Made by a program: the position numbers and the translations under genes. Below, in pieces: positions 1,002 to 30,344 of a DNA stretch of 30,344 bases. Every line of letters begins with the position of its first letter. Position 1 is the first letter of the stretch. The stretch is from a virus. The DNA lies in IMG/VR virus record IMGVR_UViG_3300030090_006831, positions 1 to 30,344 of that record. One strand, written 5' to 3'. The notes under the pieces are model-generated. The model ran no database searches. It saw nothing but the letters and a program-made list of their open reading frames with translations, and was not told the DNA's origin.

Positions 1002-3065
1002 TTATGCTGTTTTCTTGAGGGATTCGATTTCGTCCTTCAACTCCTGCAGCTGCTCCAACAGCAAGACAGACATCATCTGATACCGGACACTATAGGGCTT
1101 ACCGTCCTTGAAGTTGACCAACTCCGGCATCACCTCTGCAACTTCTTCTGCAATCAGACCAAAGTCCCGACGTCCTGGCTCTCCTACCTGCTGTGCCCAC
1201 CCATCTGGGGCATCGACTGGATGACGCCAAGTAAACGTCCTCGGCTTTAGATCCATCACTCGGTCAGATCCCGTTCCTGAAGTATAATCCTCCTTATAGA
1301 CCCCAGAGGATGTCACCGAGTGGAGTTCATTTGATCCGTTGATGTTGACGTCCGTCGAAGCGGATGCTGCCAGCAGAGCATTCATGAATACGCCGCCATC
1401 GCTCTCAACAACCACTCTGAACGCCGAAGCATTATTGTCATAAAGCCCCCATTCGTCCTTGTAGCCGCCGTTCTGGCCTCCAACGAGAAACGAGTAGTCG
1501 CCGCCATCCAAAGGGCCAGTAGCATGCATCCGTAGCTCGACGCTATGGCGCCCGATGTTCTGGATGATCATGCCAATCAGCGCGCTATTGTCGTCGCCCG
1601 TGACATCAAGAACGCTGTCTGGAGTATCAGTCAGTATACCGATCCTGTCAGTCGACGCATCCGCGAAGAAAAGATGCGTTTTCCCATCGCCCTCTATGCG
1701 GAAATCCTTATCGGCTCCTGCCTCGTTGAATACGAAAGTGCCCCCATCAAAGCTCACATCGCCGGTGGCCGATAGCGTGGTAAATGCCCCCGTAGAGGCT
1801 GAAGAAGCGCCAACAGTAGTGCCGTCAATGGCCCCGCTGTCGATGTCCACGTTGGTTATTTCATGATTGTTGAAGTCCAACTCTACAGCACCATCACCAC
1901 CCCAGGTTAGCTTGCCTGCTGTATGCGTCAGCGTGATGTCGCCGCTATTCCAGTTGATCACCGATCCCGAAGACGTGAGAAGCAGATCATCTCCTACTGA
2001 GACATCTGTAGTGGCAGACAGGCTGGTAAAAGCCCCCGTAGAGGCCGACGCTGCCCCGATAGCCGTGCCGTCGATGGCCCCGCCGTTGATGTCGAACGCA
2101 CTGCCCTCGATCTCCACACTCCCCGCCTCCAGCTTCTGGCCGAGGGTGATCTTCTCGCCGCTATTGGTTGTGACAAAGGTCAGGTAGGCATTGTTAGCCT
2201 CCTCGATTATCAGCGAGGAAGCTTGGTTGTCGGGGATCTTTATCGAGTTCTCACCCGCATTGCTGAAGACCAAAGCCCCGTCACCGCCAGCAGAAAGCGT
2301 AAGATCGCCTGATATATCCGCAGCGCCGTTGATGTCCACCGTGCCGCCTATCGTCACTACCGTGGCAGTAGACGTTATTACATCAGTCCCACCAACCTTG
2401 AGTTTGACTGTATCATCAGCAGAAGCATAAAGGTAGCTATCATGGTCGGCGTCCAACATATAGCCCAAGCCGCCAGCTTGGCCCGTAAGATACTCTTCAG
2501 CGCACTGGCTTAGATCAAAGACTATACGCCCACTGCTAGCGTGGACAACGCTCACATACCCAACAACCTGTATAAACTCACCAGAGGTAGGGCGCGTTAG
2601 TGTCCAACCTCCTGCCGTAGAAGACAAGTAAACCGGGTTGCCTACCGTGCTGCCAGACGTGTTTAGGCCAGAGACCTCCTTTGACAGCAAAGCTGTACCG
2701 TCGGCATTGTTTGAAATGTTCGCATCAACAATAGCGATAGCAAAGTAATTGGTAGCTAATGCAGCAGTGCTATCAGCTTTTGCTGCCGTTGGATAGTTGT
2801 CAGTTCCATCAGAATAGGTTCCTGACAGATAGATCAGGTCGTTGCCAGAAAGAGTGCCGCCTGTTTCATTGCGGATCTTGAAGCGACCATTTTCAACGTT
2901 GGCGTGAGAACGGATCTTACTGGTTCGGATCCCATTATCCTGCAGATTGAGATAGTCAAGCTTAGTCGTATTCGCCCAAGTCCTAACCTGCTCTAAGGGA
3001 GTCTGCACGTGGTTCCAGTTGTGCGGTTGGGCATTGGCAGCATATGTGAGTGTTAGTTCAGGCAT
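1002..3065 (-). CDS. Tail fibre/spike with C-terminal S74 intramolecular chaperone
   Basis: This 687-residue receptor-binding-type protein has three visible parts. The N-terminal third (1-200) starts MPELTLTYAANAQPHNWNHV and is probably the virion attachment part. The middle (about 200-560) is beta-rich and repetitive: two copies of a GAIDGT..GA.SASTGAFT.LSAT motif, as in trimeric fibres. The last 100 residues are a peptidase S74 (endosialidase-type) chaperone with S586 and K591 in an SSGVYK motif (Ser and Lys five apart, as in the known autoproteolytic dyad), then LKPRTFTW, GLIAEEV and a closing coiled coil. In this family the domain trimerises the fibre and then cuts itself off. The ATG overlaps the upstream stop as TAATG. 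Confidence 0.9.
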   Translation of the reverse strand: MPELTLTYAANAQPHNWNHVQTPLEQVRTWANTTKLDYLNLQDNGIRTSKIRSHANVENGRFKIRNETGGTLSGNDLIYLSGTYSDGTDNYPTAAKADSTAALATNYFAIAIVDANISNNADGTALLSKEVSGLNTSGSTVGNPVYLSSTAGGWTLTRPTSGEFIQVVGYVSVVHASSGRIVFDLSQCAEEYLTGQAGGLGYMLDADHDSYLYASADDTVKLKVGGTDVITSTATVVTIGGTVDINGAADISGDLTLSAGGDGALVFSNAGENSIKIPDNQASSLIIEEANNAYLTFVTTNSGEKITLGQKLEAGSVEIEGSAFDINGGAIDGTAIGAASASTGAFTSLSATTDVSVGDDLLLTSSGSVINWNSGDITLTHTAGKLTWGGDGAVELDFNNHEITNVDIDSGAIDGTTVGASSASTGAFTTLSATGDVSFDGGTFVFNEAGADKDFRIEGDGKTHLFFADASTDRIGILTDTPDSVLDVTGDDNSALIGMIIQNIGRHSVELRMHATGPLDGGDYSFLVGGQNGGYKDEWGLYDNNASAFRVVVESDGGVFMNALLAASASTDVNINGSNELHSVTSSGVYKEDYTSGTGSDRVMDLKPRTFTWRHPVDAPDGWAQQVGEPGRRDFGLIAEEVAEVMPELVNFKDGKPYSVRYQMMSVLLLEQLQELKDEIESLKKTA
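1764..2093. repeat. Two imperfect ~85-bp direct repeats in the tail fibre gene
   Basis: Copies lie at about 1764-1848 and 2009-2093. Both run from a GTGGC..A.AG..TGGTAAA block through GCCCCCGTAGAGGC to GCCGTC.ATGGCCCCGC. They encode the repeated GAIDGT..GA.SASTGAFT.LSAT motif of the fibre shaft. Such repeats can recombine and change shaft length. Confidence 0.75.
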
Positions 3066-5752: not shown

Positions 5753-6232
5753 TCAGTTGCTATCGATTTCCGCCAGCTCCTGCTCAATCGGCGGTTGATT
5801 CAACTCGTTGGCTTTCAGGGCAGCATTCCGATCTTCTTTTGGTCGGTTGTCAACCGGGAAGGTATCCGCATCTTTCTTCGCCGCCCAATGTATTGGATCC
5901 CGAACCAGGTCGTCCGTCTCGGCTCGTTGAGATAGCACATTCCGGCGGTGCGCTGATCGTTGCACCTCCATTTGCTCGCGCATAATGTCATTAGTTCGCC
6001 GAACATGATGGTCACATGACTTGAGCATCCGGAAGGTGCGGATGTCAAAGGGACGATAGCTCCCATCATTATTCTCTACAAAGCAAATATGCTTCTCAAC
6101 ATCGTAAAGCTGAGACGGGGCCGGACACAGACGTGTGACCTCCCAACGCTCTCTGGAATCACACCAGCGCACATTGAGTTTTGGATCATACGCCTGCATC
6201 CGCTTGAGCAAACCCCGATCAGGAATATACAT
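5753..6232 (-). CDS. Conserved-looking neck-region protein
   Basis: I place the start at the ATG at 6232, which overlaps the TGA of the preceding gene as TGATG, giving 159 residues (MYIPDRGLLKRMQAYDPKLN...). The frame is open 21 codons further upstream, but that part overlaps the neighbour. The protein has an N-terminal alpha/beta part with RWCDSRERWEVTR, a DGSYRPFDIRTFRML segment, then a long charged helix rich in Arg, Glu and Gln. I recall similar small proteins beside connector genes in other phages. A head-completion or neck role is inferred from position only. Confidence 0.6.
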   Translation of the reverse strand: MYIPDRGLLKRMQAYDPKLNVRWCDSRERWEVTRLCPAPSQLYDVEKHICFVENNDGSYRPFDIRTFRMLKSCDHHVRRTNDIMREQMEVQRSAHRRNVLSQRAETDDLVRDPIHWAAKKDADTFPVDNRPKEDRNAALKANELNQPPIEQELAEIDSN

Positions 6233-6861
6233 CAGGCCGCTACCAGATCCGCCGTAAGCGCACCCGATGTCTGCTCGATCTCGTTGCGCGTCCACAGCGG
6301 CACATAGTCGATAACAAGACCCAGGAACACAGCTTCATCTGCTTCGAAACCAGTCCAAGCATCAGCTTCAACATTCCAGGCAATAGCGCCCTGGCGTGCC
6401 GTAAAGTCAAACTTATTCTTCGAAATGATACCTCGGCTGGATCGATATAGCCGCAGTGTCGTAGTTGCCGAAGGACTTTGAGCGGCAATAGTCGTGTCAA
6501 GGGCCGCTCCCGTGCCTTTCTGTGGCGCGGTCAGCGCTTCTCCTACATCACACTGATCGTAGCTAACGGCCCAAGTAATTGAGTCGCTAGTTGCGATACC
6601 AGTAGCCGCCTCTACTGTCCATATAACCGTAGCCCCAATAGTGTGCCGTGGATCCATCAGCGCAGGTGTTTCCAAGTCTAACGCAGACCACTCATCACCA
6701 GCTGCCCCCACAGTGATGCCACCATAGGCAAATGTCGATAGCTCACCCCAGGCAGGGGCACCCGCCCCGCCGCCAGCATTGCCAACGCCCAAATTGAAAA
6801 CGTGCCAGGGTAGCACAGTCCGACCGCGAAGAGATTCAATACCCTTATTTCTCAGTCCCAT
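6232..6861 (-). CDS. Structural-region hypothetical protein (beta-rich)
   Basis: The 209-residue product begins MGLRNKGIESLRGRTVLPWH, then a Gly/Ala-rich stretch and alternating strands with Thr, Ala and Asp. It has no transmembrane segment and no catalytic motif I recognise. It lies between a small beta-rich protein and the neck protein and ends in a TGATG overlap with the next gene. Size, composition and position suggest a virion component, perhaps a head decoration or fibre-type protein. The ribosome site CGGGAG precedes the ATG by nine bases. Confidence 0.6.
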   Translation of the reverse strand: MGLRNKGIESLRGRTVLPWHVFNLGVGNAGGGAGAPAWGELSTFAYGGITVGAAGDEWSALDLETPALMDPRHTIGATVIWTVEAATGIATSDSITWAVSYDQCDVGEALTAPQKGTGAALDTTIAAQSPSATTTLRLYRSSRGIISKNKFDFTARQGAIAWNVEADAWTGFEADEAVFLGLVIDYVPLWTRNEIEQTSGALTADLVAA

Positions 6862-18565: not shown

Positions 18566-19456
18566 ATGGAAGCGCACGAGTTGCCTCAACGCATCGAAGC
18601 TCGACGGAAGAAGCTCATGAACAATTCACTTTCAATTACGCATGGAGGACAGGTCATGCGCACGATGAAGCCGGACTTCGGTCCAGACAACAAGCATCAC
18701 TTCTACCCTCGCCCCTTGGAGGAGATGTCGGACGACGAGCGGGACCGCTGGCTGGGTAGGACGCCACGTTCCAAGCGCGTTCGTGGGTTGGAGCCGCGCA
18801 AGGCGGAGAGCAGATTACACGCCATGAACATGGCTCGGAAGCTGTCTCGACGTCGTGGGGCAAAGCCGCCCATCGAGGTAAAGGTGGTCTACTGCGCCAA
18901 GCGTGGCTGGTGGGTATTCCCACAGCGCAGCCCCAAGGACGTCACGCTTGAGCGCGGTCTCTTCTACGACGGCGTTTACACTCACCCCAAGCCCTACCAC
19001 AAAGAGGATGAGATGCCGCCAGCGTGGGACATCTGTCTTCAGACGTGGGATGGCGAGGACATCTCCATCGAGGTCCATGAGTTCGACGCCCGTGTAGCCC
19101 AAGGCAAGGCCCTCGACAAAGGGCCGGCAGGTGCGAGGGTCATAGACTGCATTCAGATAGACGCAGACCGAGGTGCATGGCTGGCGGAGGTCAGTGCAGC
19201 ACCGGGTGCCAAGGCGTTGCCGCCGGAGCAGGTGGACGAAGACGCCGAGGTGCGCCAGCACGAGGTGGCTACGTGCCAGCAGCTACCGGACGACAAGCCG
19301 AGGGTAGACGGCCTTGTAGCTGCTGCCGAGGAGGCTGGATTCGACTACCTCTCCGGCGACTACTACCTGGGAGAAGACGCCAAGCCGGTGGCTGAAGCCA
19401 TAGCCATTGCGGTCACCCGCAGCGAAGCCGGCGTCGCCCACGCCGTAGCAGTATAA
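18566..19456 (+). CDS. First gene of the early operon, unknown function
   Basis: The 296-residue product has a strong ribosome site (AGGAG, seven bases before the ATG). The first 100 residues are basic (RTPRSKRVRGLEPRKAES, MARKLSRRRGAK) and the rest is acidic, with VVYCAKRGWWVFPQRSPKD, GLFYDGVYTHPKPY and a final EEAGFDYLSGDYYLGED segment. No known domain is recognised. The codons are visibly richer in G and C than those of the genes from 20.4 kb on, hinting at a different history. A strong terminator follows directly, so it forms its own unit. Early takeover or DNA-binding function is possible, but unsupported. Confidence 0.7.
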   Translation: MEAHELPQRIEARRKKLMNNSLSITHGGQVMRTMKPDFGPDNKHHFYPRPLEEMSDDERDRWLGRTPRSKRVRGLEPRKAESRLHAMNMARKLSRRRGAKPPIEVKVVYCAKRGWWVFPQRSPKDVTLERGLFYDGVYTHPKPYHKEDEMPPAWDICLQTWDGEDISIEVHEFDARVAQGKALDKGPAGARVIDCIQIDADRGAWLAEVSAAPGAKALPPEQVDEDAEVRQHEVATCQQLPDDKPRVDGLVAAAEEAGFDYLSGDYYLGEDAKPVAEAIAIAVTRSEAGVAHAVAV

Positions 19457-19462
19457 CCTCTG

Positions 19463-19501
19463 CCCGCCGGGGAGCCTTCGGGCTTCCTGGCGGGTTTTTT
19501 T
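19463..19501 (+). terminator. Intrinsic terminator
   Basis: A 14-bp stem (CCCGCC-GGGGAGCC pairing with GGCTTCCT-GGCGGG) with a UUCG loop is followed by seven T. This is a textbook rho-independent terminator six bases after the stop of the preceding gene. Confidence 0.95.
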
Positions 19502-19508
19502 AGTTGTC

Positions 19509-19537
19509 TTGCCTTTCAATTACGGGGTGGGTATGAT
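19509..19537 (+). promoter_or_regulatory. Sigma-70-type promoter for the SSB operon
   Basis: TTGCCT (19509-19514), 17 bases, then TATGAT (19532-19537), placed right after the terminator. The predicted start near 19544 leaves a leader of about 44 bases with AAGGAG eight bases before the ATG at 19588. Confidence 0.7.
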
Positions 19538-19587
19538 GGGCCTGGGGGGCGAACGCAATTAACCCGAAGCTCTAAGGAGTAAAGCCG

Positions 19588-19806
19588 ATGAAACTGAAAA
19601 CAGAATCTCCCATGTTATCTCGTCCTCCTGAGGTGTTTCAGAATGTGGAAACGCAAGAAGACGACTGCCTATCCACTTGCGTCATAGACGGCGCCCGGTA
19701 CTACTGCACTCTACAGGAAGACCACGATGGCGACCACCAAGCAGAAGGCTCTGACGATCACATCCACGCCCACTGGCGTCACACGCCAAAGACAATTCCG
19801 TATTAG
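19588..19806 (+). CDS. Small Cys/His-rich protein, possibly zinc-binding
   Basis: The 72-residue product has C..C-type residues and many histidines in TCVIDGARYYCTLQEDHDGD and HIHAHW near the end. The CTLQEDHDGDHQ pattern recalls the CxLP.GH.G.H motif of many small phage proteins (common in actinobacteriophages) of unknown function. Strong ribosome site and own promoter. It precedes SSB in one operon. Metal binding is inferred from the Cys/His spacing. Confidence 0.7.
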   Translation: MKLKTESPMLSRPPEVFQNVETQEDDCLSTCVIDGARYYCTLQEDHDGDHQAEGSDDHIHAHWRHTPKTIPY

Positions 19807-19870
19807 AAAATTGTTGGACATTCATTCCATTACGCGTTCAGCGTTCACCTCGTAACAGGAGAGAATAGTC

Positions 19871-20308
19871 ATGCCAGAATTGAAGATGCCGAACCTGAAC
19901 CAGCTAACTGTCTCAGGCAGGCTCACGCAGGATCCGGATGTCACCAGCATGGCCAGCGGCCAGGACCGCGCCTACTTCCGCATCGCTGTCAACCGCAGCT
20001 ACAGGGTTGGCGAGGAGTGGAAGGAGGAGACCAGCTTTTTCAGCGTTGTTGCCTGGGGGCATGCTGCTACTCGTGCGGGAGAAAACCTGTCCAAAGGAGA
20101 CCCCGTTATCATCGAAGGGCGTCTTCGCAGCTACGACCCGCCTGCTGGAGATGACGGAGAGCGTCGCGCCTCGGTAGTCGAGATCACAGCACAGCGCGTT
20201 GTAAAGCTCACCTCCAACGGCGATAGCAACGGCGATAGCAACGGCCACTCCAGCGAGGAGGACCGCACCAGCTTCCCGCCCGAATCAACCGAATACTCCG
20301 ACCTTTAA
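19871..20308 (+). CDS. ssb: Single-stranded DNA-binding protein
   Basis: The 145-residue product has the OB-fold of bacterial-type SSB at residues about 6-115: LNQLTVSGRLTQDPDV, AYFRIAVNR, ETSFFSVVAWGHAA, NLSKGDPVIIEGRLRSYD and VEITAQRVVKL. A tandem 12-bp repeat at 20219-20242 encodes an NGDS linker, followed by an acidic tail ending EYSDL, shorter and different from the usual D-D-I-P-F. It protects single strands during replication and works with the annealing protein encoded further on. Ribosome site AGGAG is nine bases before the ATG. Confidence 0.95.
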   Translation: MPELKMPNLNQLTVSGRLTQDPDVTSMASGQDRAYFRIAVNRSYRVGEEWKEETSFFSVVAWGHAATRAGENLSKGDPVIIEGRLRSYDPPAGDDGERRASVVEITAQRVVKLTSNGDSNGDSNGHSSEEDRTSFPPESTEYSDL

Positions 20309-20381
20309 GGCACACGCCCAGCCCACAGGCGCTGTGCCACGTGGGCGCTCCCCACCCCCCTGTCCTCCGGGGAGCGCCCAC
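20309..20381 (+). other. Two hairpins between SSB and the next gene
   Basis: GGCACA (20309-20314) pairs with TGTGCC (20333-20338), and a perfect 13-bp GC-rich stem follows (20341-20353 with 20369-20381, 15-base loop). No U-tract follows, so an RNA-processing or mRNA-protecting element is more likely than an intrinsic terminator. The next ribosome site begins six bases later. Confidence 0.65.
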
Positions 20382-20399
20382 ACATTAAGGAGAAGAGCG

Positions 20400-20723
20400 A
20401 TGCTCCCTGCAGTCGAATCCTTCATACAGCGACACATAACCTTCGAACGCGCACTTAAAGCAGTGAATTTCACGCCAGAAGACTGGAGTCTATACCCTCC
20501 AATCAAACAATGCCGACGGTACAGCCAAGAACGGATCCACAGCGTCGCAGTTGACCTGAATGAGGGAGTGCGATTAGCCTACGCATCCAGCCCCGATAAG
20601 AAAGTGTTTAAAGAGAGGATGCTTAAGCTGCTGAGTATACACAAAGAGTGTATCTCTAATACTAACAGTTTTCACTGGCTAATTAACGACATTTCTAACT
20701 ACCTCTATGGGCCAAGGGCATAA
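20400..20723 (+). CDS. Small hypothetical protein
   Basis: From ATG 20400 (AAGGAG nine bases before) the product has 107 residues, mostly helical: MLPAVESFIQRHITFERALK, then DWSLYPPIKQCRRYSQER, SPDKKVFKERMLKLLSIH and a closing HWLINDISNYLYG. No motif is recognised. It follows the strong hairpin behind SSB and is probably an early gene. Confidence 0.65.
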   Translation: MLPAVESFIQRHITFERALKAVNFTPEDWSLYPPIKQCRRYSQERIHSVAVDLNEGVRLAYASSPDKKVFKERMLKLLSIHKECISNTNSFHWLINDISNYLYGPRA

Positions 20724-21012
20724 TGCCCCAGAAAGCATTGTAACCGCCGCGACTCTAATGAAAGACATTCCCACCCACTGGACCTGCCCGTATTGCCAGC
20801 AAGAGAACACCCACTATCGACATTGCGACACAGCTTGTCGGTGCGGCCGATGTGAATACATGGCAGAATGGTGGGATGTAGATTTCAATTTTTCATTACA
20901 GCGATGGTATGCAGAAAAAGATCCACTCTCACATCACTATACCGAGAGAGGGGGTCAAGTCCGCAACAAGGCCAAATTCAATCGCTTTGGTGAACCGTAT
21001 GGAGGCAATTAG
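20707..21012 (+). CDS. Small zinc-ribbon-like protein
   Basis: The 101-residue frame contains CPYCQQENTHYRHCDTACRCGRC (residues about 27-49), with paired cysteines and histidines that could hold one or two zinc ions. The end is charged with aromatic residues. Two starts are possible: ATG 20707, overlapping the previous gene by 17 bases, and ATG 20758; neither has a good ribosome site. The last codons include GGAGG, the ribosome site of the next gene. Confidence 0.6.
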   Translation: MGQGHNAPESIVTAATLMKDIPTHWTCPYCQQENTHYRHCDTACRCGRCEYMAEWWDVDFNFSLQRWYAEKDPLSHHYTERGGQVRNKAKFNRFGEPYGGN

Positions 21013-21270
21013 ATGAATGGCCGGTTTTATTGGAGACGCAATCAGGATCTACAAGATATGAAGAATATGGAAGAGATTTTCCTCATCTCTACACCCAAGT
21101 TGCTGGAGGAGAAGGTGCGACTGCAACTAGAACTACAGCGTCAGATGGATCAGTTGCACGACCGTATGGAGCATGTCAGACTTGAGATAGAAGACATCTC
21201 TGCTGACCTTGTAGCCCCCGACTATGCATGCTTTGACAAGGAAGACTATGTCCTTCAAGATGCGCCATGA
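21013..21270 (+). CDS. Small coiled-coil protein
   Basis: The 85-residue product has a clear coiled coil in the middle (LLEEKVRLQLELQRQMDQLH and following DRMEHVRLEIEDIS) and a short acidic end. The ribosome site GGAGG lies seven bases before the ATG, directly after the upstream stop. No family is known. Confidence 0.7.
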   Translation: MNGRFYWRRNQDLQDMKNMEEIFLISTPKLLEEKVRLQLELQRQMDQLHDRMEHVRLEIEDISADLVAPDYACFDKEDYVLQDAP

Positions 21271-21339
21271 GAAATAATCGCACTAAAAAGGTGAAAAATA
21301 AAGACAGTTTTCACTCTTTCATCTACAGGGAGAAAGACA

Positions 21340-22167
21340 ATGGCTGATGAAACTCACATCCTAACATACTCGGACAAGAATGCCCGTGAGGTTACCTTCG
21401 ATGAGCTTCCTCATATCCAGCCCCTTGAAGAGAAAACAGCTACCTATACACCACTTCCGCACTACGACTTTGCCCAGAATGTAGCCCGACTGGGTGTTGA
21501 GATGCTGGGACCGCATGGTTTCGAGTTAAACGGCAGTCGCATTGTTGTAAACAAAGACGCCGGCCGTATGTTTATGGTGCAAGCTTTCAATCACAATGAG
21601 AGAAGTGACCTGAAGCTAGCCGTAGCTGGACGCAACTCAACGGATAAGTCATGCTTGGCTGCTGTAGCCATCGGCGCCCAGGTGACAGCATGTCTCAACC
21701 TGTGCATAGGCGGTAAGATCCGCGTTGTACGCAAGCATACGGGAGACATCTTCTCCTACCTGAATGACAATCTGGTGCTAGCCTTTCACAAGGCCACCGA
21801 TGGATGGAACGACATGCAGGCAGATGTAGAAGCCATGAAGAAGTCCACCCTTGACGACCGTGAAGCATGTCGTCTCATTGGACAGTTTTGGCACTCAGGT
21901 CTCCTCATGCCGCAGCAGATGACGGCCGTGCGCAAACGCTGGGAAAATCCCCCGCAAAACGAGTTTAAAGATCGAACACTATGGTCGCTATACAACGGTG
22001 TCACTGACGTTTATAAGCAGCTGCCACCGACAACAATAATGCAAAAGCACCTGAAGTTACATGCCCACATGCGAGAGGAAATATTGTATCCCGAGAAACA
22101 GAACGAACGGGAAGAGCTGTTACTTGCCGGAGATCACGACGTCGACACCCACGAACGAGCAGAATAA
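21340..22167 (+). CDS. DUF932-like phage/plasmid protein
   Basis: The 275-residue product resembles the DUF932 (phage-plasmid-like, TIGR03299-type) family of unknown function. The typical core is visible: ELNGSRIVVNKDAGRMFMVQ, a GRNSTDKSCLAAVAIGAQVTA segment like the family's RNSHD.S..A....V..C, then CLNLCIGGKI, VRKHTGDI and a long helical part with FKDRTLWSLYNGVTDVYKQ. These proteins are often found beside recombination genes in phages and plasmids. Ribosome site GGGAG is seven bases before the ATG. Its stop codon lies inside the closing stem of the structured RNA that follows. Confidence 0.7.
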   Translation: MADETHILTYSDKNAREVTFDELPHIQPLEEKTATYTPLPHYDFAQNVARLGVEMLGPHGFELNGSRIVVNKDAGRMFMVQAFNHNERSDLKLAVAGRNSTDKSCLAAVAIGAQVTACLNLCIGGKIRVVRKHTGDIFSYLNDNLVLAFHKATDGWNDMQADVEAMKKSTLDDREACRLIGQFWHSGLLMPQQMTAVRKRWENPPQNEFKDRTLWSLYNGVTDVYKQLPPTTIMQKHLKLHAHMREEILYPEKQNEREELLLAGDHDVDTHERAE

Positions 22168-22500
22168 AAGACTCTGCGCTGCGGCAGCAGCGAGGATTAA
22201 AGGGGCTGAATCCTAAGTTAATTCTCAGGATGTCGCTTCTGGGGAAGGCGAATAGCGATCTGTGCCAGCGGCAAATGCGACGCTTCTGCCGAAGCTAAGT
22301 TCCAACTGACCCTGGCACGGGTAAGTGACGCTTTAAAGGTAGGCAGCAGGGGAACACTGCCCAGAGTCTATAGACGGAGAAGAGTAGGTATGCCTAGTAG
22401 GTCCGCCAGGGCCCTCGCACCGAAAAGCTACTGAGCAAATCCCTGCCATGACCAGCCAGAGAAACGCTATCTGGCCGCAGGTTCTTCTTCGTCTTTTATT
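22163..22500 (+). ncRNA. Large structured non-coding RNA candidate, first element
   Basis: A perfect 10-bp closing stem (AATAAAAGAC at 22163-22172 with GTCTTTTATT at 22491-22500) encloses 318 bases without a credible gene. Inner stems include GTGCCAG/CTGGCAC (22262-22268, 22312-22318) with nested CGGCA/TGCCG, GGCAG/CTGCC (22342-22346, 22357-22361), and CCTGC/GCAGG (22442-22446, 22477-22481) with nested GCCAGA/TCTGGC. AATCCT at 22209-22214 can pair either with AGGATT (22193-22198) or AGGAT (22227-22231). It does not show the conserved sequences of RNase P, tmRNA or 6S RNA that I know. Confidence 0.7.
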
Positions 22501-22505
22501 TAAAA

Positions 22506-22652
22506 TGGAAGCCGGTGCCTCTGTCTGGGGAGGGAGAGGTTAACGCCGTTGAGACGAACCACCTCACTCCAAGAGGAGAGCGCCAGGGAAAGCCCCCGGC
22601 GCAGGAGGATCCGAACGTCTCCCGGTTCACCGGCTTCCACTTTAATTTTTTT
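22506..22652 (+). ncRNA. Second structured RNA element ending in a U-tract
   Basis: A perfect 12-bp stem (22506-22517 with 22628-22639) closes a multi-branched fold: CCTCT/AGAGG, GAGACG/CGTCTC (22551-22556, 22616-22621), and within it CTCC-aaga-GGAG (22567-22578) and GCGCC/GGCGC (22580-22584, 22598-22602). Seven T at 22646-22652 follow the closing stem, so the same element could end transcription. It begins five bases after the first element. A riboswitch-type terminator or the 3' domain of one large RNA are both possible. Confidence 0.7.
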
Positions 22653-22683
22653 GACTCGAAACCCAGCATAGGATCAGCCAGCT

Positions 22684-22905
22684 ATGAAAACATTGGTAGC
22701 CCTCACCGAAAAGCAAATATACGTCATCATGAGCGCCCTTCGTTATTATCACTTGTGGAGTGGGCACCCGATCGTCGAACGGGGGGCGGGGAGGAGTGCC
22801 TTCAAAGCGTTGTCGGAGGCACTGACCCCTTACGAGAATCGCGAAGATCGCGGGGAGGTGACCCATGGAAATAAAGGCAACACCTACCACTCAGATAAAA
22901 GTTGA
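22684..22905 (+). CDS. Small hypothetical protein
   Basis: The 73-residue product starts MKTLVALTEKQIYVIMSALR, a helical pattern seen in many small phage proteins, with HLWSGHPIVERGAGRS and FKALSEALTPYE behind it. It is the first gene after the structured RNAs and overlaps the next gene by 41 bases. The ribosome site is weak (AGGA, ten bases before the ATG). Confidence 0.6.
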   Translation: MKTLVALTEKQIYVIMSALRYYHLWSGHPIVERGAGRSAFKALSEALTPYENREDRGEVTHGNKGNTYHSDKS

Positions 22906-23170
22906 GTTATACTGCACGCGAAAAGAGCTTGACCACATCTATGACATAGTAGATGCGATCAAAAGCCATTCTGGCATGACTATTCTCTTAACTGACTTTT
23001 TAGAGTTTGCGCACGGCCGCAGCAATTACTTCGCAACCTTAGATAAATTATCCCTGTCCTTATCCCTGGCTTACAAGCAGCTTTCGCTCAGCAACAAGCA
23101 AGGATCTACGGATGACACCCACACAACGCCTGATGCAGATAGTGAAAATAGCGATGAAAGCGGACCATAA
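22865..23170 (+). CDS. Small hypothetical protein with acidic tail
   Basis: An excellent ribosome site (GGAGGTG) lies four bases before the ATG. The 101-residue product has a strand-helix start (IKVELYCTRKELDHIYDIVD), a Leu/Ser-rich helix (KLSLSLSLAYKQLSLSNK) and an acidic Asp/Ser/Thr tail. No family is recognised. Confidence 0.65.
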   Translation: MEIKATPTTQIKVELYCTRKELDHIYDIVDAIKSHSGMTILLTDFLEFAHGRSNYFATLDKLSLSLSLAYKQLSLSNKQGSTDDTHTTPDADSENSDESGP

Positions 23171-23339
23171 AATCATTGATCAATTTACTATGGGTTCTCA
23201 GACGTTCTACACTGAAGCAAACTCACATGCCGACTTCTACGGCCGTGCCCTTTCCCTGGGGGTTATTGACCAAAAGGAGTACGAGGAGATCAAGGATTCC
23301 TTCAACGGCTACAGCTGGTCTGTGGCTCATAATCACTAA
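23112..23339 (+). CDS. Small hypothetical protein
   Basis: The 75-residue product (MTPTQRLMQIVKIAMKADHK..., ending GYSWSVAHNH) overlaps the previous gene by 59 bases and the next by a TAATG junction. It has a predicted helical fold with DFYGRALSLGVIDQKEYEEI. AGGA lies nine bases before the ATG. Function unknown. Confidence 0.55.
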   Translation: MTPTQRLMQIVKIAMKADHKIIDQFTMGSQTFYTEANSHADFYGRALSLGVIDQKEYEEIKDSFNGYSWSVAHNH

Positions 23340-23587
23340 TGACCACCCGAGAGTTATTTGAATTACGTGTGCGAGAATTTGCAGTACTAGCAGACGACTT
23401 TGGGCAAAAACACAACCTAAACTCCATCGACATGGCTGGCATAAGCGGAGGACTGGCAGCAGCAGCTATTATCCACATTGGCAAAGAACATCCAAATAAG
23501 GCGATCGAAAGCCTCAATCACATCATAGACAAGCTTGAAATTGTTAGACAGGAGATCATCCGTGGCACAGCACAAGAGGGCGGGTGA
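23339..23587 (+). CDS. Small helical hypothetical protein
   Basis: The 82-residue product is a likely two- or three-helix protein: MTTRELFELRVREFAVLADD, then SGGLAAAAIIHIGKE and KAIESLNHIIDKLEIVRQ. It starts in a TAATG overlap and contains the ribosome site of the next gene in its last codons. No family known. Confidence 0.6.
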   Translation: MTTRELFELRVREFAVLADDFGQKHNLNSIDMAGISGGLAAAAIIHIGKEHPNKAIESLNHIIDKLEIVRQEIIRGTAQEGG

Positions 23588-23798
23588 CCATTTTATCCGA
23601 TTTAGAATACCAAAAGACGAATATATTCAGTTACGGGACCACTGCCACGAACATGACATGACTGTTTCTGAAATGGTTCGTCTGTGCCTGCGAACAGTAA
23701 TGAGGCAAGAAGAAGCCAACTTCACCGAAAGGAAAGCCAGTGTTCGACGAGAAGCAGCTGAAAGAACTAAGGAAGGACCTGGACAAGAAGCATGTTAA
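23562..23798 (+). CDS. Ribbon-helix-helix regulator
   Basis: I chose the GTG at 23562 (78 residues) because AGGAG lies seven bases before it; a TTG at 23535 is an open alternative. The Arc/MetJ/CopG plan is visible: a strand HFIRFRIPKDEYIQL, a first helix with RDHCHEHD, the turn MTVSEMVRL and a second helix CLRTVMRQ. Such proteins bind DNA as dimers through the strand. The C-terminus is basic and charged. It lies directly before the annealing protein and overlaps it by 59 bases, so it may regulate this operon. Confidence 0.75.
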   Translation: MAQHKRAGDHFIRFRIPKDEYIQLRDHCHEHDMTVSEMVRLCLRTVMRQEEANFTERKASVRREAAERTKEGPGQEAC

Positions 23799-24600
23799 AG
23801 GGCGCAAGCAAGCCGGTACTACGCTCTCTTACATCGAATCCTGGCATGCCATCCGAGAAGCCAACCGGATATTCGGAGAAGGTAACTGGTCCCGAGAACT
23901 GCGAGACCTTGATCTAGTAGTTCCTCCACAGGAAAGACAGGGTGGAACTATTCTAGTCGCCTACGTAGCTACCGTACGTATTCATATCCACGATGGAGAA
24001 AAGTCTCTGTTTCGAGATGGAACTGGATACGGCTCCGGCATATCCAAATCAGTCGGGGATGCCTTTGAAGGTGCCGCAAAAGAAGCTGAGTCCGACGCGA
24101 TGAAACGGGCACTGATGACATTCGGATATCCCTTTGGGCTGGCCCTCTACGACAAAACTCAAGAACATGTAAGCACTGGCGTAGACATCGAGAAAAAAGA
24201 ACCTCCAAAGAAAGAATCGCCAAAGAAAGAATCGCCACCACCAACGCCTCGATGGGCGGCTTCGCTAAAGAAAACAACACAGGCACAGATGGACATCGAA
24301 CAAGTGCGTAAGGATATTGAGTCAATCCTAGCCAGCGGAGACAAAGAATGGACCGATTTACTCGACAACTTTGCCATCCTTCTGGGCGACCGATACTATC
24401 ACGCTGGCGCCCCCACCAACTTCCCTGAGTTCTGCGGCATGATAGACAAGGTAAAGAAAGAGCTGGGTGACGACCCTTGGTACTACGACCTGTGCAAGTC
24501 CTTTAAGATGAAAAATCGCTCCGACGCTTCTAATAACCCTCGAAAGATGACTCTGTTTATCTGTATGATCCAGTCCGAAATTCTAAATCGCAAATCATAA
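23740..24600 (+). CDS. Rad52-family single-strand annealing protein
   Basis: The 286-residue product carries the Rad52/Rad22 core at residues about 5-150: LSYIESWHAIREANRIFGEGNWS, VAYVATVRIHI, RDGTGYGSG and AFEGAAKEAESDAMKRALMTFGYPFGLALYD. These proteins form rings that anneal complementary strands coated by SSB and serve phage recombination and genome repair or circularisation. A Pro/Lys linker follows (about 150-185), with a tandem 15-bp repeat at 24205-24234 encoding PKKES. The C-terminal domain (190-286) is helical and unassigned. Start GTG with AGGA six bases upstream. Confidence 0.93.
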   Translation: MFDEKQLKELRKDLDKKHVKGRKQAGTTLSYIESWHAIREANRIFGEGNWSRELRDLDLVVPPQERQGGTILVAYVATVRIHIHDGEKSLFRDGTGYGSGISKSVGDAFEGAAKEAESDAMKRALMTFGYPFGLALYDKTQEHVSTGVDIEKKEPPKKESPKKESPPPTPRWAASLKKTTQAQMDIEQVRKDIESILASGDKEWTDLLDNFAILLGDRYYHAGAPTNFPEFCGMIDKVKKELGDDPWYYDLCKSFKMKNRSDASNNPRKMTLFICMIQSEILNRKS

Positions 24601-24613
24601 AGCGAGCATACCG

Positions 24614-24853
24614 TTGAGTCATAAAGCGAGCAGTAAGAGTCAACTGGAGCTGACCTGCCGCATCTATAAGACTAATGCCGATGCCGCTCGTGCAATGGGC
24701 GTATCGAAAACCGGGCTTTCAAATATGTGTAAGCGACTAGGCGTAGAGTCGCCAGCTGAGAGGAATAAGAGACTTAAAGAGCCAGGGAAAACTATCAGGA
24801 ACAGGAAAAGATATAACGAGAAGCTATATCATATTTCTGATTCAAAAGCCTGA
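24614..24853 (+). CDS. Small HTH protein, last of the early operon
   Basis: The 79-residue product has an HTH of Fis/transposase type: TNADAARAMGVSKTGLSNMC (about 21-40), followed by a very basic C-terminus (KRLKEPGKTIRNRKRYNEK). The start is TTG at 24614 with no clear ribosome site, so the exact start is uncertain. It lies just before the inverted-repeat cluster at 24859, which it might bind; that is inference. Confidence 0.65.
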   Translation: MSHKASSKSQLELTCRIYKTNADAARAMGVSKTGLSNMCKRLGVESPAERNKRLKEPGKTIRNRKRYNEKLYHISDSKA

Positions 24854-24858
24854 GAAGA

Positions 24859-24916
24859 CCACTGACAGAACTGACAGAAGGCATGATCTGTCAGTTCTTG
24901 TCAGTTCTGTCAGTGG
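24859..24916. repeat. Iteron-like 9-bp units forming nested inverted repeats
   Basis: Two ACTGACAGA units (24861-24878) face three TCTGTCAGT-type units (24887-24916, one imperfect). They form either a perfect 18-bp stem (24859-24876 with 24899-24916) or a 12-bp stem (24867-24878 with 24887-24898, 8-base loop). The site lies between convergent operons, so a bidirectional terminator, a protein-binding array or an origin element are possible. No U-tract is present. Confidence 0.75.
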
Positions 24917-24932
24917 GATCTCCTTGCGACTC

Positions 24933-24972
24933 GATTAGAGGTAAGTATTACGAGGAATACTTACCTCTAATC
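24933..24972. repeat. Perfect 17-bp inverted repeat with 6-base loop
   Basis: GATTAGAGGTAAGTATT (24933-24949), loop ACGAGG, then the exact complement (24956-24972). The stop codon TAG of the large virion gene is inside the right arm. As RNA it is a long hairpin that could end or protect the leftward late message; as DNA it is a strong protein- or recombinase-site candidate. Confidence 0.8.
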
Positions 24973-27900
24973 TTCCAATCGTGGCCTGCGAGGTCGCCGA
25001 GGACGTCGCTCTCGCGGATCATACGCTTTAAGTCCAAGCAATTCGACAACATCCCTCTTACTATCTGGGACGCCAGTATCCTGCATTCGTTGCAGGGTTG
25101 ATGGAACTGCCAGCTGCGTCACAGCCTCCATAACATTCCAATGCATCATCTCGACCAGAGTATCCGCAAAGGGACCAGAGATTGTCTCCATGACCCCTCC
25201 AAGAAGTCCATAGCGTGGCGTCCCCCTAACAACATCCGTCACTGTCTCAGTCGCTGGATGTTGAGATCGATCGCCGATATTAGTCGATGACCACCCAGAT
25301 AATCCTGCGCCCAGAAGAAGACCATAAGCAAGGCCATGACGCAAAAGAGGCTGAATGCTCCCCTTATCTCCCTTCGTGCGCACATAGTCCATCGCATCCA
25401 GCACCATATCTCCAGTAAAACTCGTCTGATGAATGCGGTAAGAACTGAACATGAACAGCAACCGCAGCATAGGCGGCCTTAAAACAGGCGGTGTGCCCGC
25501 AACATTAAAAGGGAAATTAGCCTTCAAGGACAGCTGTCGCGCCTGATCCAATGCCTTGACATGATCCAGCCCCTGATCCCGGAATTGCTCATAGGCGCCC
25601 AAAACTACAGAAGAGCGATTGAAGCGCTCTGACCAACGAGATGGCGTTAACGCAGCATCTTGCATCATCTTAAAAAACGATCCAGCATCCACCAACTCGA
25701 TAAACTCTTCCACCTTAGATGCGTCTGAGAGCATGCCAGACTCATTTAAGATCTCTTTCGGCGTGATGATACGCTCGCTACCATCGTCATTCCTTACTCG
25801 GGACCAAGCTTTGTCTTCCCACTGAGAGGGGTTATTCTTATAGAAGAAATTAGCAATGCCCCTTGAAGTATAGTCGGCATCCAACATAGGCCAACCATTA
25901 ACCAGAGTTTGCGTTGTATTAATCAAGCCGTGAGCGAAGTTAATCCCAAGCTTGGCAAGCATCTGCGTTCGGTATATCTGCTGCAGAACAGGCTGCTGCA
26001 AATGAGGATCTGACAGCGCAACCCGAATGTCGTCAATCTTAAGAGCAGTCTTAGCTCGCATGCGCTGAGCCTTATTGCCCTTAATACGCTTCCCGGTAAC
26101 ATTATCTACCACCCGAGAACGATCGCCCAGCTGCTTTAAAAAGGCATCCGCCTGCGAGATCATATAACTACGATCATTCTCAGGCAGACCATTCCACTCC
26201 TGATCGGTCATGTTCAGACGCCGAAGAACCTGCCTCTCCTCGGCATCGCCTACCCACTCTACCGCTCCATCTACCAAGCGGTTAAACATATTACTATTGC
26301 GGAACTTTCCGGATATCCACTGTCGCGTAGGCGTAGACGAACCCAGCACATGCTTCATATAATCACGCCAAGCTGGACGAATCTGAGTGGCCCCACCCTC
26401 CCGTGTTTTCCGTGGCAAGCGGTTATAAAGGTAAAGGCCATAGTGGGCAATCTTCTCAGATGCAATGCGAGAACTTGCACCACGCAAATAGATATTCATG
26501 ATTGTCGAAAAGTCGCCCTCAAATCCCTGCAGCCCCTTGGTGCGTGGGAGCAGATGCCCAAAGGGTCGTGCCCTTAAATCCGGCGCCTCTTCTTCAAAGA
26601 CCTCTTCTACCTTCTCGCGCAGCTGACGTCGAGTGCGTTCACCTGGATCCAGCGTTAAATCAAGAAGAGCATCTCCCTTACCTGGCCCCAAGCGACCTGC
26701 CAACACTCGCGCTCGCATCTTGCCAGCATTGCCAGTAAAGACATGAGCAATGTAATTATTCAGCCGTTGTCCCTCCGGCAAGCCTAGCTCATCAGCTACT
26801 TCCTTGAGAAGCTTTCTCGAAAGCTGATAGGCTTCCCGCATCCCCTGACGCTCCAGCTGAGATTTAGCCCAATCGCTCTCTACTCCCTCATCAAGAAGAC
26901 GCGTCAGGGTGTGCGCACGCTCACGCGCTGCATCAAGCTGAGTACTCTGACCTCGAACGCGGGTCACCAACTCTGAAGCTACCGTCCGTGCCCCTGGAGA
27001 TGGCATACCAAGAAGCTTGTTTATTTCCCTAACCTGATTCCACCAGCCCGTAAAACGACCCTGATCTTCCTCGATCCAGTTTAATATCTTCCACTGAGCC
27101 TGCTGAGTAGAAGCATTGCGGCCCATAGAAACCCGCGAGGTATTTGAAAAAAAGCGATACCAGGGCTGGATATCCACCATCTCCGCATCGGTAGGAACTG
27201 CCTGATAAGCAGAATCCGTCATCTCTTCACGAAGCTTTACTGCCTCCCCAGGATGCTCATCCCCCTTCGCGAAGAAATTGTAAATGGCATCTTCTTCCTC
27301 GGCCATCTTCACTGAGCGTGCCTGACGAAGATCACCCAACGCCTGGATAGCCTCTTCCTGTGTCATCTTTTCAGGCACCATATCCTGGCGCACATCAACA
27401 CCACGTACAGACAACTCGTCAATAAGGCTGGCCATCTCTCCACGCATAGATGCCGTAGCTGTAGCTCGTGGATCACCCAGCATAAACGAGGGTGTATCAA
27501 GCTTGTGCGCCGGCATGTTAGTGAGAAAGCCTCGGTACTCAGGCTGATTTCTCAAAAGAGCCTGATCCGCTAACTCAGGTACAAACTCTGCCCGCAACCG
27601 GAACACCGTCTCCAATAGCTCGCCAATCTCCTTGCCTTGCATAGGACTTCCATGAAGCTGCTGGCGAGAGTAGATGTATTCAGAGACATCCTGACTGCGT
27701 GCTGACATTAAAAACATAGACTCGGTCTCGTTAAAACGAGCCTTAGAATCTGCCAACCCCTGCAAGCGCTCCATGCCCTGACGCTGACGCGGCGACATCC
27801 GCATCAGGAGACGCTCACGGTCAGGAATACGCATCAAATCATCGGGTGACAGCGCTCCTGGATATACCAGCGGTGCTGGCTCCAGCATCACCTCACGAAT

Positions 27901-29199
27901 AGCATAGTCCGAATCCTCAAAACGCAACCCATGATAGACTCCCGAAGGCAACGGAGGCACATAGCTGTCTCCCAATGCTAGCGCATTAATCCGATCTTCA
28001 TAGGCAGCTTTGCTCTCCTTCGGAAATCCCTTAAAAGCTTCGCGTTGCGGCACTGTAGCATGCATCAATTCATGGCGCAATGAGAAGGCTTCAAACTCCC
28101 CATAAGTACGGAAGGCATTCTCCGGAAGAGGCTTCACCCCCGGAACCTGAGGCTTAGTCCATGCCTTATCGCGGAATTTCTCCTCTAAGGCCGGGCGTGA
28201 GATCAAAACCTCGTTGCCAGTGTATCGGCCACCGATCAGCTTATCTTCTTCTCCTGGACGTGAAGGGATATGATCGACATAACGGACCTTGACATTACGC
28301 GCCACCCGCTGCATGTGCTGATCAACAGTCTCTCCCAATCGGGGGAAAGCATTCTCGCCAAAGGCAGTCTCGAAATCCGCGTCTGGCATACGCTCCGGCC
28401 CCAAGAAGGCATCCGCTGAAGCCTGCTTCTCCCAAGGCGGCGTTAAGTCAGGAGCTTCGTCGACAGGAATTGGCTCTTCAGGCCCAACATAGGTTCGAGC
28501 CTCAAGATCCTCTGGCTCAATCGGAGTAAAAGCCCCCTCACCCGTAACCATCTTCTCAATTTCTGCAAGATCGTGGTTAATTTCAGAGGTTCTCTTCCCC
28601 CTGCTTTCTCGAACCCGTTTTAGAAAACGACCACCTACATTAGCTAGAGCCTCACCGCCTACACCCAGCGTCATCCAAAGAGCTACCGTATTGCCTATCT
28701 GGTCCAAATCGTCTGTCCGCCATATCTCGGCGGAAGTTGCAACACCTGTCTCTGGGAGCATAGCTGCAGCAGTTTCTCCCGTCCATACAGCACCCCGTCC
28801 CACTCCGGTCTCTGCACCCTTACCAAGAAGCTTGCGAACAGCCTGCCCTGCGACAGGAGACGCTACCCGACGTCCTATATTAAATAGACCCGTGCCAGTG
28901 GCACCACCACCCAGCAGTCGGCCAAGCTCTCGGGAGGGCGTTACCTCTCCCAAGATAGGTATATCGGTCTTATAGGCCCCTGGCACCTCATCCAATTCCA
29001 GAAGGTTGAAGGAGGCGCCTTCCGGTATACCCTTGCCAAAGGCCGCTAGCTCTTGCAGAAGATCATCACCAAAGGTCTCAAATGCAGAAGTATCATAGCC
29101 TCGCTTACGCAACGAGGCTACAACCTCTTCTTTCGTAGCATCACCTCGCTCAATCTGAGAGCGAAGATTTTCAATGATCCTCTGAGAAAGCTCAGGCAT
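24967..29199 (-). CDS. Very large virion (ejection-type) protein with HExxH motif
   Basis: The 1410-residue product is the largest in the window. It starts with a helical segment (MPELSQRIIENLRSQIERGD, KRGYDTSAF), then Gly/Ala-rich stretches (about 93-135) and weakly hydrophobic pieces. Residues 376-380 form HELMH in LRHELMHATV, the zinc-peptidase signature. Long helical regions follow (about 450-1200), near the C-terminus a hydrophobic part (LLRLLFMFSSYRIH, LAYGLLLGAGLSGW) and a basic end (RERRPRRPRRPRLED). Size, position behind a coiled-coil protein and the membrane-active pieces suggest an internal virion protein injected with the DNA. Ribosome site AGGAG is eight bases before the ATG. Confidence 0.8.
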   Translation of the reverse strand: MPELSQRIIENLRSQIERGDATKEEVVASLRKRGYDTSAFETFGDDLLQELAAFGKGIPEGASFNLLELDEVPGAYKTDIPILGEVTPSRELGRLLGGGATGTGLFNIGRRVASPVAGQAVRKLLGKGAETGVGRGAVWTGETAAAMLPETGVATSAEIWRTDDLDQIGNTVALWMTLGVGGEALANVGGRFLKRVRESRGKRTSEINHDLAEIEKMVTGEGAFTPIEPEDLEARTYVGPEEPIPVDEAPDLTPPWEKQASADAFLGPERMPDADFETAFGENAFPRLGETVDQHMQRVARNVKVRYVDHIPSRPGEEDKLIGGRYTGNEVLISRPALEEKFRDKAWTKPQVPGVKPLPENAFRTYGEFEAFSLRHELMHATVPQREAFKGFPKESKAAYEDRINALALGDSYVPPLPSGVYHGLRFEDSDYAIREVMLEPAPLVYPGALSPDDLMRIPDRERLLMRMSPRQRQGMERLQGLADSKARFNETESMFLMSARSQDVSEYIYSRQQLHGSPMQGKEIGELLETVFRLRAEFVPELADQALLRNQPEYRGFLTNMPAHKLDTPSFMLGDPRATATASMRGEMASLIDELSVRGVDVRQDMVPEKMTQEEAIQALGDLRQARSVKMAEEEDAIYNFFAKGDEHPGEAVKLREEMTDSAYQAVPTDAEMVDIQPWYRFFSNTSRVSMGRNASTQQAQWKILNWIEEDQGRFTGWWNQVREINKLLGMPSPGARTVASELVTRVRGQSTQLDAARERAHTLTRLLDEGVESDWAKSQLERQGMREAYQLSRKLLKEVADELGLPEGQRLNNYIAHVFTGNAGKMRARVLAGRLGPGKGDALLDLTLDPGERTRRQLREKVEEVFEEEAPDLRARPFGHLLPRTKGLQGFEGDFSTIMNIYLRGASSRIASEKIAHYGLYLYNRLPRKTREGGATQIRPAWRDYMKHVLGSSTPTRQWISGKFRNSNMFNRLVDGAVEWVGDAEERQVLRRLNMTDQEWNGLPENDRSYMISQADAFLKQLGDRSRVVDNVTGKRIKGNKAQRMRAKTALKIDDIRVALSDPHLQQPVLQQIYRTQMLAKLGINFAHGLINTTQTLVNGWPMLDADYTSRGIANFFYKNNPSQWEDKAWSRVRNDDGSERIITPKEILNESGMLSDASKVEEFIELVDAGSFFKMMQDAALTPSRWSERFNRSSVVLGAYEQFRDQGLDHVKALDQARQLSLKANFPFNVAGTPPVLRPPMLRLLFMFSSYRIHQTSFTGDMVLDAMDYVRTKGDKGSIQPLLRHGLAYGLLLGAGLSGWSSTNIGDRSQHPATETVTDVVRGTPRYGLLGGVMETISGPFADTLVEMMHWNVMEAVTQLAVPSTLQRMQDTGVPDSKRDVVELLGLKAYDPRERRPRRPRRPRLED

Positions 29200-29210
29200 T
29201 ATTCAAACTC

Positions 29211-30344
29211 CTAACGTCGTAAAGACACCAAAATACGGTCTATCTCTTTCACCATCTTTCCCCAATCCATAAGCTTAGCAGAATCCTTAACACTATTTAA
29301 AACATTCAAATCAACTGGATCTTGCTGCAATGCCTTCAAAACGTCATACCAAAGACGTCTATATGGTCTCACTCTATTAGTTTTACTTCGTGAATTATCC
29401 ATTCTTCCTAACTCATCAGGAAGAATTTTATTAAAAGCTTCATTTGAAACCTTCGTATCTACCCGAAGTTCCACCCTTCGAGATTTGCCTCCTACCTGTT
29501 TAGCCGAAGTAGCTCTACGAGGTAGCGAATAAATACCGTATTCTATCTGCTTATTGCGGACAGTATCATTGTCTGAAAGGCCATCTCCAACATCATCTTT
29601 ATCTACCCTAGGTCCAGGAGGAGGAGATACATCATCACCTTCATCATCACCTTCATTATCCGTCTCCCTTCGTGCCCGATCTAGAGGGTCCTCACTTCGA
29701 TCACCTCCTAGATTATCTAGCTCAGTTTTAAGTTCATTATAATCTTTCATCAGGGCAGTAGCTTCATCCCTGTTGCCAATATCCAAATGAGACTGTACTT
29801 CCCTTAGAGTTAAATTCATTCTCGTCAGCAAACGACGTTGCTCAGCATGAGGCTTAGACATCACTATCGGCATCCCGCCTTTCTCAACATCTAGGATATA
29901 AACAGTGTCTTCATCCTGAGTGATGTAGAACTGGCCTGTCTTTTGATCATAAGCGACCTGTTCCGCTTTAATGTCTAAGCCTCTGTTCCGTAAATCCTGC
30001 TCAATTCTACGCCAGCTCGCGTCATTTCTCAGCTGGCTCATATTATAATAATTATCGTTGCTAACACGCCGAGACTCAGTGTTGGCACGCTGCTGATCGA
30101 TCCTCAGACTATCTCGGTCTATTTGTTTCTCCCATTCTGCGATCTTAAGGTTAGTATAGCTAGCCAACTTCGCTTGTTCCATGGCTGCCTCTGTTTGAGT
30201 CTTTACATTCTCCCGACTGGTAGTCTGCGGGTGGTAAGGCGCAGCCTCCCAAGAGGTGGGATCCAGAGCCTCTGGCTTGCCTCCTATAATATCCCGCAAT
30301 TTCCCCATAATCCCGCCGCCAGCCGAAGGTCGTGGCCTTAAGCC
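29211..30344 (-). CDS. Coiled-coil virion-type protein, open at the window edge
   Basis: An ATG at 30308 gives 365 residues, but the frame stays open for 12 more codons to the window end (GLRPRPSAGGGI before MGKLRDIIGGKP). The product has a long coiled coil (about 30-110: EQAKLASYTNLKIAEWEKQI..., RIDQQRANTESRR), a strand segment QFYITQDEDTVYILDVEKGG, a second helical hairpin, an acidic low-complexity linker (about 200-240) and a basic end. It precedes the 1410-residue protein and probably is a second internal virion protein. If the window ends join, the start would be TTG at base 3 on the minus strand with AGGAG before it. Confidence 0.7.
   Translation of the reverse strand, partial: GLRPRPSAGGGIMGKLRDIIGGKPEALDPTSWEAAPYHPQTTSRENVKTQTEAAMEQAKLASYTNLKIAEWEKQIDRDSLRIDQQRANTESRRVSNDNYYNMSQLRNDASWRRIEQDLRNRGLDIKAEQVAYDQKTGQFYITQDEDTVYILDVEKGGMPIVMSKPHAEQRRLLTRMNLTLREVQSHLDIGNRDEATALMKDYNELKTELDNLGGDRSEDPLDRARRETDNEGDDEGDDVSPPPGPRVDKDDVGDGLSDNDTVRNKQIEYGIYSLPRRATSAKQVGGKSRRVELRVDTKVSNEAFNKILPDELGRMDNSRSKTNRVRPYRRLWYDVLKALQQDPVDLNVLNSVKDSAKLMDWGKMVKEIDRILVSLRR

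Follow-up and report, generated by a model that had tools for sequence, protein, structure and literature searches.

The locus lies in a 30,344-nt window, the whole stretch of DNA that was analysed, which is part of a 37.7-kb IMG/VR virus record (37,689 bases). The source is an uncultured tailed phage encoding a major head protein, a portal, a terminase, an SSB, a DUF932 protein and a Rad52 protein. Its closest IMG/VR relatives have major head proteins that are only 42-64% identical, and more distant ones 22-26%; consequently, the records searched contain no close relative. The early genes of the + strand form a tightly packed unit (18566-24853), with which a large gene of the - strand converges. 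A single large gap of 516 nt, between DUF932 and a block including the RelB/RHH-like and Rad52 genes, interrupts this unit, every other gap being at most 131 nt. A coding reading of 22168-22652 was rejected since 3-10 stops are found in each of the six frames, three on either strand. The gap holds two structured elements, hereafter element 1 and element 2, the latter occupying the last ~150 bases (Table 1). For the 87-aa product of the RelB/RHH-like gene, the Pfam match to RelB antitoxin stayed below threshold (E 0.0003; 21.1 bits vs 22.4). A 1410-aa protein encoded at 24967-29199 weakly matched a DarB-like antirestriction family in PHROG and has relatives in several phages sharing the gene order.

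Table 1. Features in and around the gap between DUF932 and the Rad52 block (window positions; inner stems and hairpins of element 2 were read by eye from the dot-bracket fold)
Feature	Position	Strand	Remarks
DUF932 gene	21340-22167	+	Pfam PF06067; directly upstream of the 516-nt gap
Element 1	22163-22500		two closed domains (about 22169-22370 and 22371-22495) in 10-bp outer arms
Element 2, closing stem, 5' arm	22500-22517	+	12 bp perfect from 22506; A.C mismatch, then five outer A-U pairs
Element 2, hairpin P2 of first junction	22518-22539	+	MFE and centroid
Element 2, inner arm	22545-22626	+	MFE = centroid; 4-bp stem, 6-bp stem, internal loop, 4-bp stem, two hairpins
Outer 4-bp stem of inner arm	22545-22548/22623-22626	+	
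6-bp stem of inner arm	22551-22556/22616-22621	+	
Internal loop of inner arm		+	AACCA/AUCCGAA
Inner 4-bp stem of inner arm	22562-22565/22605-22608	+	carries two hairpins
Two terminal hairpins, second junction	22567-22578 and 22580-22602	+	
Element 2, closing stem, 3' arm	22628-22645	+	inverted-repeat search, pair probabilities
U7 tract, terminator-like	22646-22652	+	directly 3' of the extended stem
Downstream block	22684-24853	+	seven tightly packed or overlapping genes incl. RelB/RHH-like and Rad52
RelB/RHH-like gene	23535-23798	+	in downstream block, next to Rad52
Rad52 gene	23740-24600	+	in downstream block

Element 2 is closed by TGGAAGCCGGTG (22506-22517) and CACCGGCTTCCA (22628-22639), which are perfectly complementary over 12 bp, as a sequence-only reading of this DNA had claimed. 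An inverted-repeat search recovered the larger arms of Table 1, which are 94% complementary and enclose 110 nt. In a joint fold with element 1, the closing pairs form with probabilities of 0.78-1.0 and the A-U extension with 0.69-0.96. That reading had also described an internal 6-bp stem enclosing two hairpins; both are present, but hairpin P2 and the outer 4-bp stem of the inner arm had been omitted. Its statement that the element ends directly in a U-tract is accurate for the extended stem, whereas the 12-bp stem is separated from U7 by six bases (CUUUAA). The five-base spacing it gave between the two elements is correct (outer arms of element 1 at 22163-22172/22491-22500), and once the A-U extension is counted the elements have base 22500 in common.

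Element 2 is genuine and, as RNA of the + strand, strongly structured. The MFE of 22506-22652 is -69.5 (z -4.5), a value that none of 200 shuffles reached, and the + strand adopts one dominant structure at about -71 kcal/mol. For 22500-22645 on this strand, the MFE was matched in 0 of 600 shuffles and the ensemble diversity was 8.4 vs 31.8 in shuffles (3/600 as low); without the arms, the interior still gave 6.5 vs 22.9 (17/600 as low). The - strand matches this stability, yet its fold is defined no better than that of shuffles, with an ensemble diversity of 32.7 for the element (312/600 shuffles as low) and 22.5 for the interior (299/600). A stable fold on both strands is what an inverted repeat alone would give, while an interior that is well defined on the + strand only argues for a function in RNA rather than DNA. 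Together, these single-sequence folds, as distinct from covariation, argue for element 2 acting as a + strand RNA. A DNA-level element, either a replication or strand-initiation site or a MITE-like insertion, would fit the stable folding of both strands, the neighbouring SSB and Rad52 genes and the lack of any element-2-like RNA in the syntenic phage G004, where a 74-aa ORF lies ~31 bases after DUF932 and is followed by Rad52. We nonetheless hold such an element to be highly improbable given the strand preference of the fold, interior included, its single copy in the 37.7-kb record and, as judged by eye, the absence of a clear target-site duplication beside the arms.

At 7 places in the window, perfect inverted repeats of 12 bp enclose a loop of 3-150 nt, vs 0.22 per shuffle, and 100 shuffles of the window produced none with T6 just downstream. 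Under the scan settings, a 12-bp-closed structure with T6 occurs twice in the 1,543,037 bases of the window and fetched loci, as element 2 and at 2515-2632 of locus L133. The L133 structure is branched, is followed by U6 and sits within ~660 bases (2377-3036) without an ORF of 50 aa. A perfect 12-bp inverted repeat with arms 111 bases apart is also found within a predicted - strand gene of the window (29849-29983).

This excess of inverted repeats would be compatible with an intercistronic processing or stabilising structure, e.g. a double-strand RNase site, separating and protecting the SSB-DUF932 mRNA from the Rad52-block mRNA. Early transcripts of phage T7 contain sites of this kind for RNase III. 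Long stems are likewise found in other gaps of the early unit, namely a 13-bp hairpin without U-tract after SSB (20341-20382) and, where the early unit meets the converging large - strand gene (24859-24972), two long near-perfect tandem hairpins, again without U-tract. A processing site would, however, leave U7 unexplained, and only one other + strand run of T6 or longer in the early unit (19495) follows a comparably strong hairpin. We regard this role as decidedly unlikely.

The reading that we prefer, and to which we accord about even confidence, is that element 2 would form a 3' end akin to an intrinsic terminator but with an oversized branched head, i.e. a leaky terminator or attenuator constituting the 3'-end domain of the SSB-DUF932 transcript. 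Like intrinsic terminators, it has a stable GC-rich stem, an uninterrupted U7 abutting the extended stem and a location that closes an early gene group. Unlike them, it carries, in place of a compact short loop, a 110-nt head with two junctions and three hairpins, and five weak A-U pairs separate its strong stem from U7; both features speak against termination. A simple terminator scan of the + strand did not list element 2. A canonical terminator of the + strand, a stem followed by U7, is present in this phage at 19462-19501. The proposal that element 2 is the 3' domain and terminator of a composite RNA thus finds support for element 2 alone, in its + specific and well-defined fold, its U7 and the presence of this textbook terminator on the same strand.

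Under the terminator reading, a polymerase arriving from the SSB-DUF932 side would transcribe the 18-nt arms, which would close over a rigid Y-shaped interior. The polymerase would then pause in U7, and some transcripts would terminate near 22652, their 3' ends being protected. Such transcripts could start at a promoter-like site (19509-19537, 9/12) just after the canonical terminator. U7 and the ATG at 22684 are separated by 31 bases without a promoter-like site, and a promoter scan of the + strand over 19800-24290 reported none. Consequently, the Rad52 block would rely on read-through, on an antitermination factor or on a type of promoter outside the scope of the scan. By transcribing the block through one of the first two routes, the phage would let element 2 set how strongly SSB/DUF932 are expressed relative to the Rad52 block. 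If element 2 terminates, an intrinsic terminator can bear a large, rigid branched head overlooked by simple terminator finders, and large-headed terminators may occur widely at the boundaries of phage gene blocks.

It had also been suggested that element 2 is a regulatory switch deciding whether the downstream genes are transcribed. A switch by the RNA fold itself is not borne out: the closing stem forms with a probability near 1, blocking its 5' or 3' arm shifts the joint-fold MFE from -198.8 to -177.8 or -178.0, respectively, at a cost of ~21 kcal/mol, and no antiterminator or upstream partner for the closing arms appeared in the joint fold. We rejected an intrinsic fold switch since the terminator arm has no mutually exclusive pairing; attenuation via read-through or a protein antiterminator is possible. 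PMC2864571 presents the crcB and pfl motifs as structured RNAs overlapping a terminator upstream of genes, and element 2 is similarly a structured RNA with a putative terminator upstream of genes. It differs from these riboswitches in having neither an alternative fold nor an Rfam match, and no known riboswitch class was matched in the window or, to E 10, over 22100-22750.

Rfam covariance models identified no family at gathering score in the window and, to E 10 over 22100-22750, three matches that are all unrelated and below cut-offs; we thus rejected identity with a known RNA family. The GOLLD, ROOL and OLE models gave no gathering match in the window and were absent from the matches to E 10 over 22100-22750. 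ARAGORN detected no tRNA or tmRNA, and these identities, along with group I or II introns, were rejected for lack of a covariance or ARAGORN match. A distant blastn of 541 bases against phages gave a best match of 25-29 bases at E 2 or worse. Plasmids yielded no relative, nor did IMG/VR when searched via the DUF932 protein, a 101-aa downstream protein or the exact closing-stem pattern; the internal-loop pattern returned two matches (L143 and L144), both of which fold differently. The noncoding strand was also rendered as two nonsense translations, which served as multi-word DNA probes for scanning 84,980 GTDB genomes and gave 343 and 593 word matches, none of them confirmed. Finally, a covariance model, R1, built from the single sequence, was run on the window with 67 loci, on 75 loci and on 18 whole records. 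Beyond element 2 and its own - strand (E 0.00029, from the same inverted repeat), R1 found short terminator-like or partial matches only, at 19463-19501 of the window (E 0.044) and elsewhere at E 0.38 or worse. As no homologue was found, element 2 offers no covariation.

Element 1 is also more stable than its shuffles on both strands (0/100 as low on +, 1/100 on -). Its ensemble diversity is 26.9 vs 75.8 in shuffles on the - strand (0/100 as low) and 58.6 vs 79.6 on the + strand (24/100 as low). In the joint fold, the outer 10-bp closing stem of element 1 scarcely forms (pair probability below 0.1), as its bases are claimed by the two inner domains. U-rich tails (UUUUAUU), read by eye, follow the closing stems of element 1 on both strands.

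Both elements could together make up a single structured noncoding RNA of ~480 nt that would represent a new class, with element 2 as its 3' domain and terminator, and that would serve as an RNA scaffold or decoy during infection. The 516-nt gap without an ORF, the direct adjacency of the elements, a joint fold at z -3.97 and a structured gap at the same place in the syntenic phage L070 all point in this direction. Membership of both elements in one RNA is nevertheless uncertain because the better-defined fold of element 1 is that of the - strand; in addition, its outer stem competes with its own inner closing stems, the searches above brought up neither relatives nor any Rfam match to E 10 besides the three unrelated ones, and the L070 RNA has no sequence in common with it. 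We consider this single RNA possible, if doubtful. PMC12286853 places GOLLD and ROOL in phages and prophages. The candidate RNA resembles these ornate large RNAs, and OLE, in being large, elaborate and noncoding, but it lacks an Rfam match and a nearby tRNA and measures only ~480 nt even with elements 1 and 2 as one RNA. If element 2 is the 3' domain of a larger RNA, that RNA would be a phage orphan with no place in Rfam and a directly testable function.

The region after DUF932 was compared among 74 related loci. In the 61 used for ORF distances (13 were dropped for short flanks), the next ORF of at least 60 aa lay at most 277 bases from the DUF932 stop under a crude ORF rule. Structure and terminator comparisons used 58 of the 74 after short flanks and duplicates were dropped, the structure comparison additionally dropping stretches that hold N. 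Downstream stretches with z < -2 numbered 27/58 vs 25% of 160 controls (Mann-Whitney p 0.01, relatedness not corrected); they appear somewhat more structured than controls, a result on which we lean little. Terminator-like hairpins were not enriched after DUF932 (7/58 vs 29/276 after other genes), which counts against the terminator reading of element 2, as does the lack of a U-tract in the structured L070 gap.

L070 has the gene order of the window, with SSB, DUF932 and a convergent large gene. Its DUF932 gene is followed by a 274-nt ORF-poor gap (5838-6110) that folds at z -3.4 and contains a domain with perfect 12-bp arms at 5958-6091; this gap showed no U-tract, no sequence similarity to the window RNA and no Rfam match. 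The structured gaps of the two phages suggest that structured RNA follows DUF932 in more than one lineage. It seems on the unlikely side that the DUF932-Rad52 gap would encode a new class of phage multi-domain noncoding RNA, the 3' domain of which doubles as a terminator, and that syntenic phages, L070 among them, would harbour fast-evolving counterparts. In L069, whose DUF932 protein is 54% identical, a short hairpin follows DUF932. L080, another Rad52 phage, also has a long-stem branched structure downstream of DUF932, where two short genes flank it (6130-6237).
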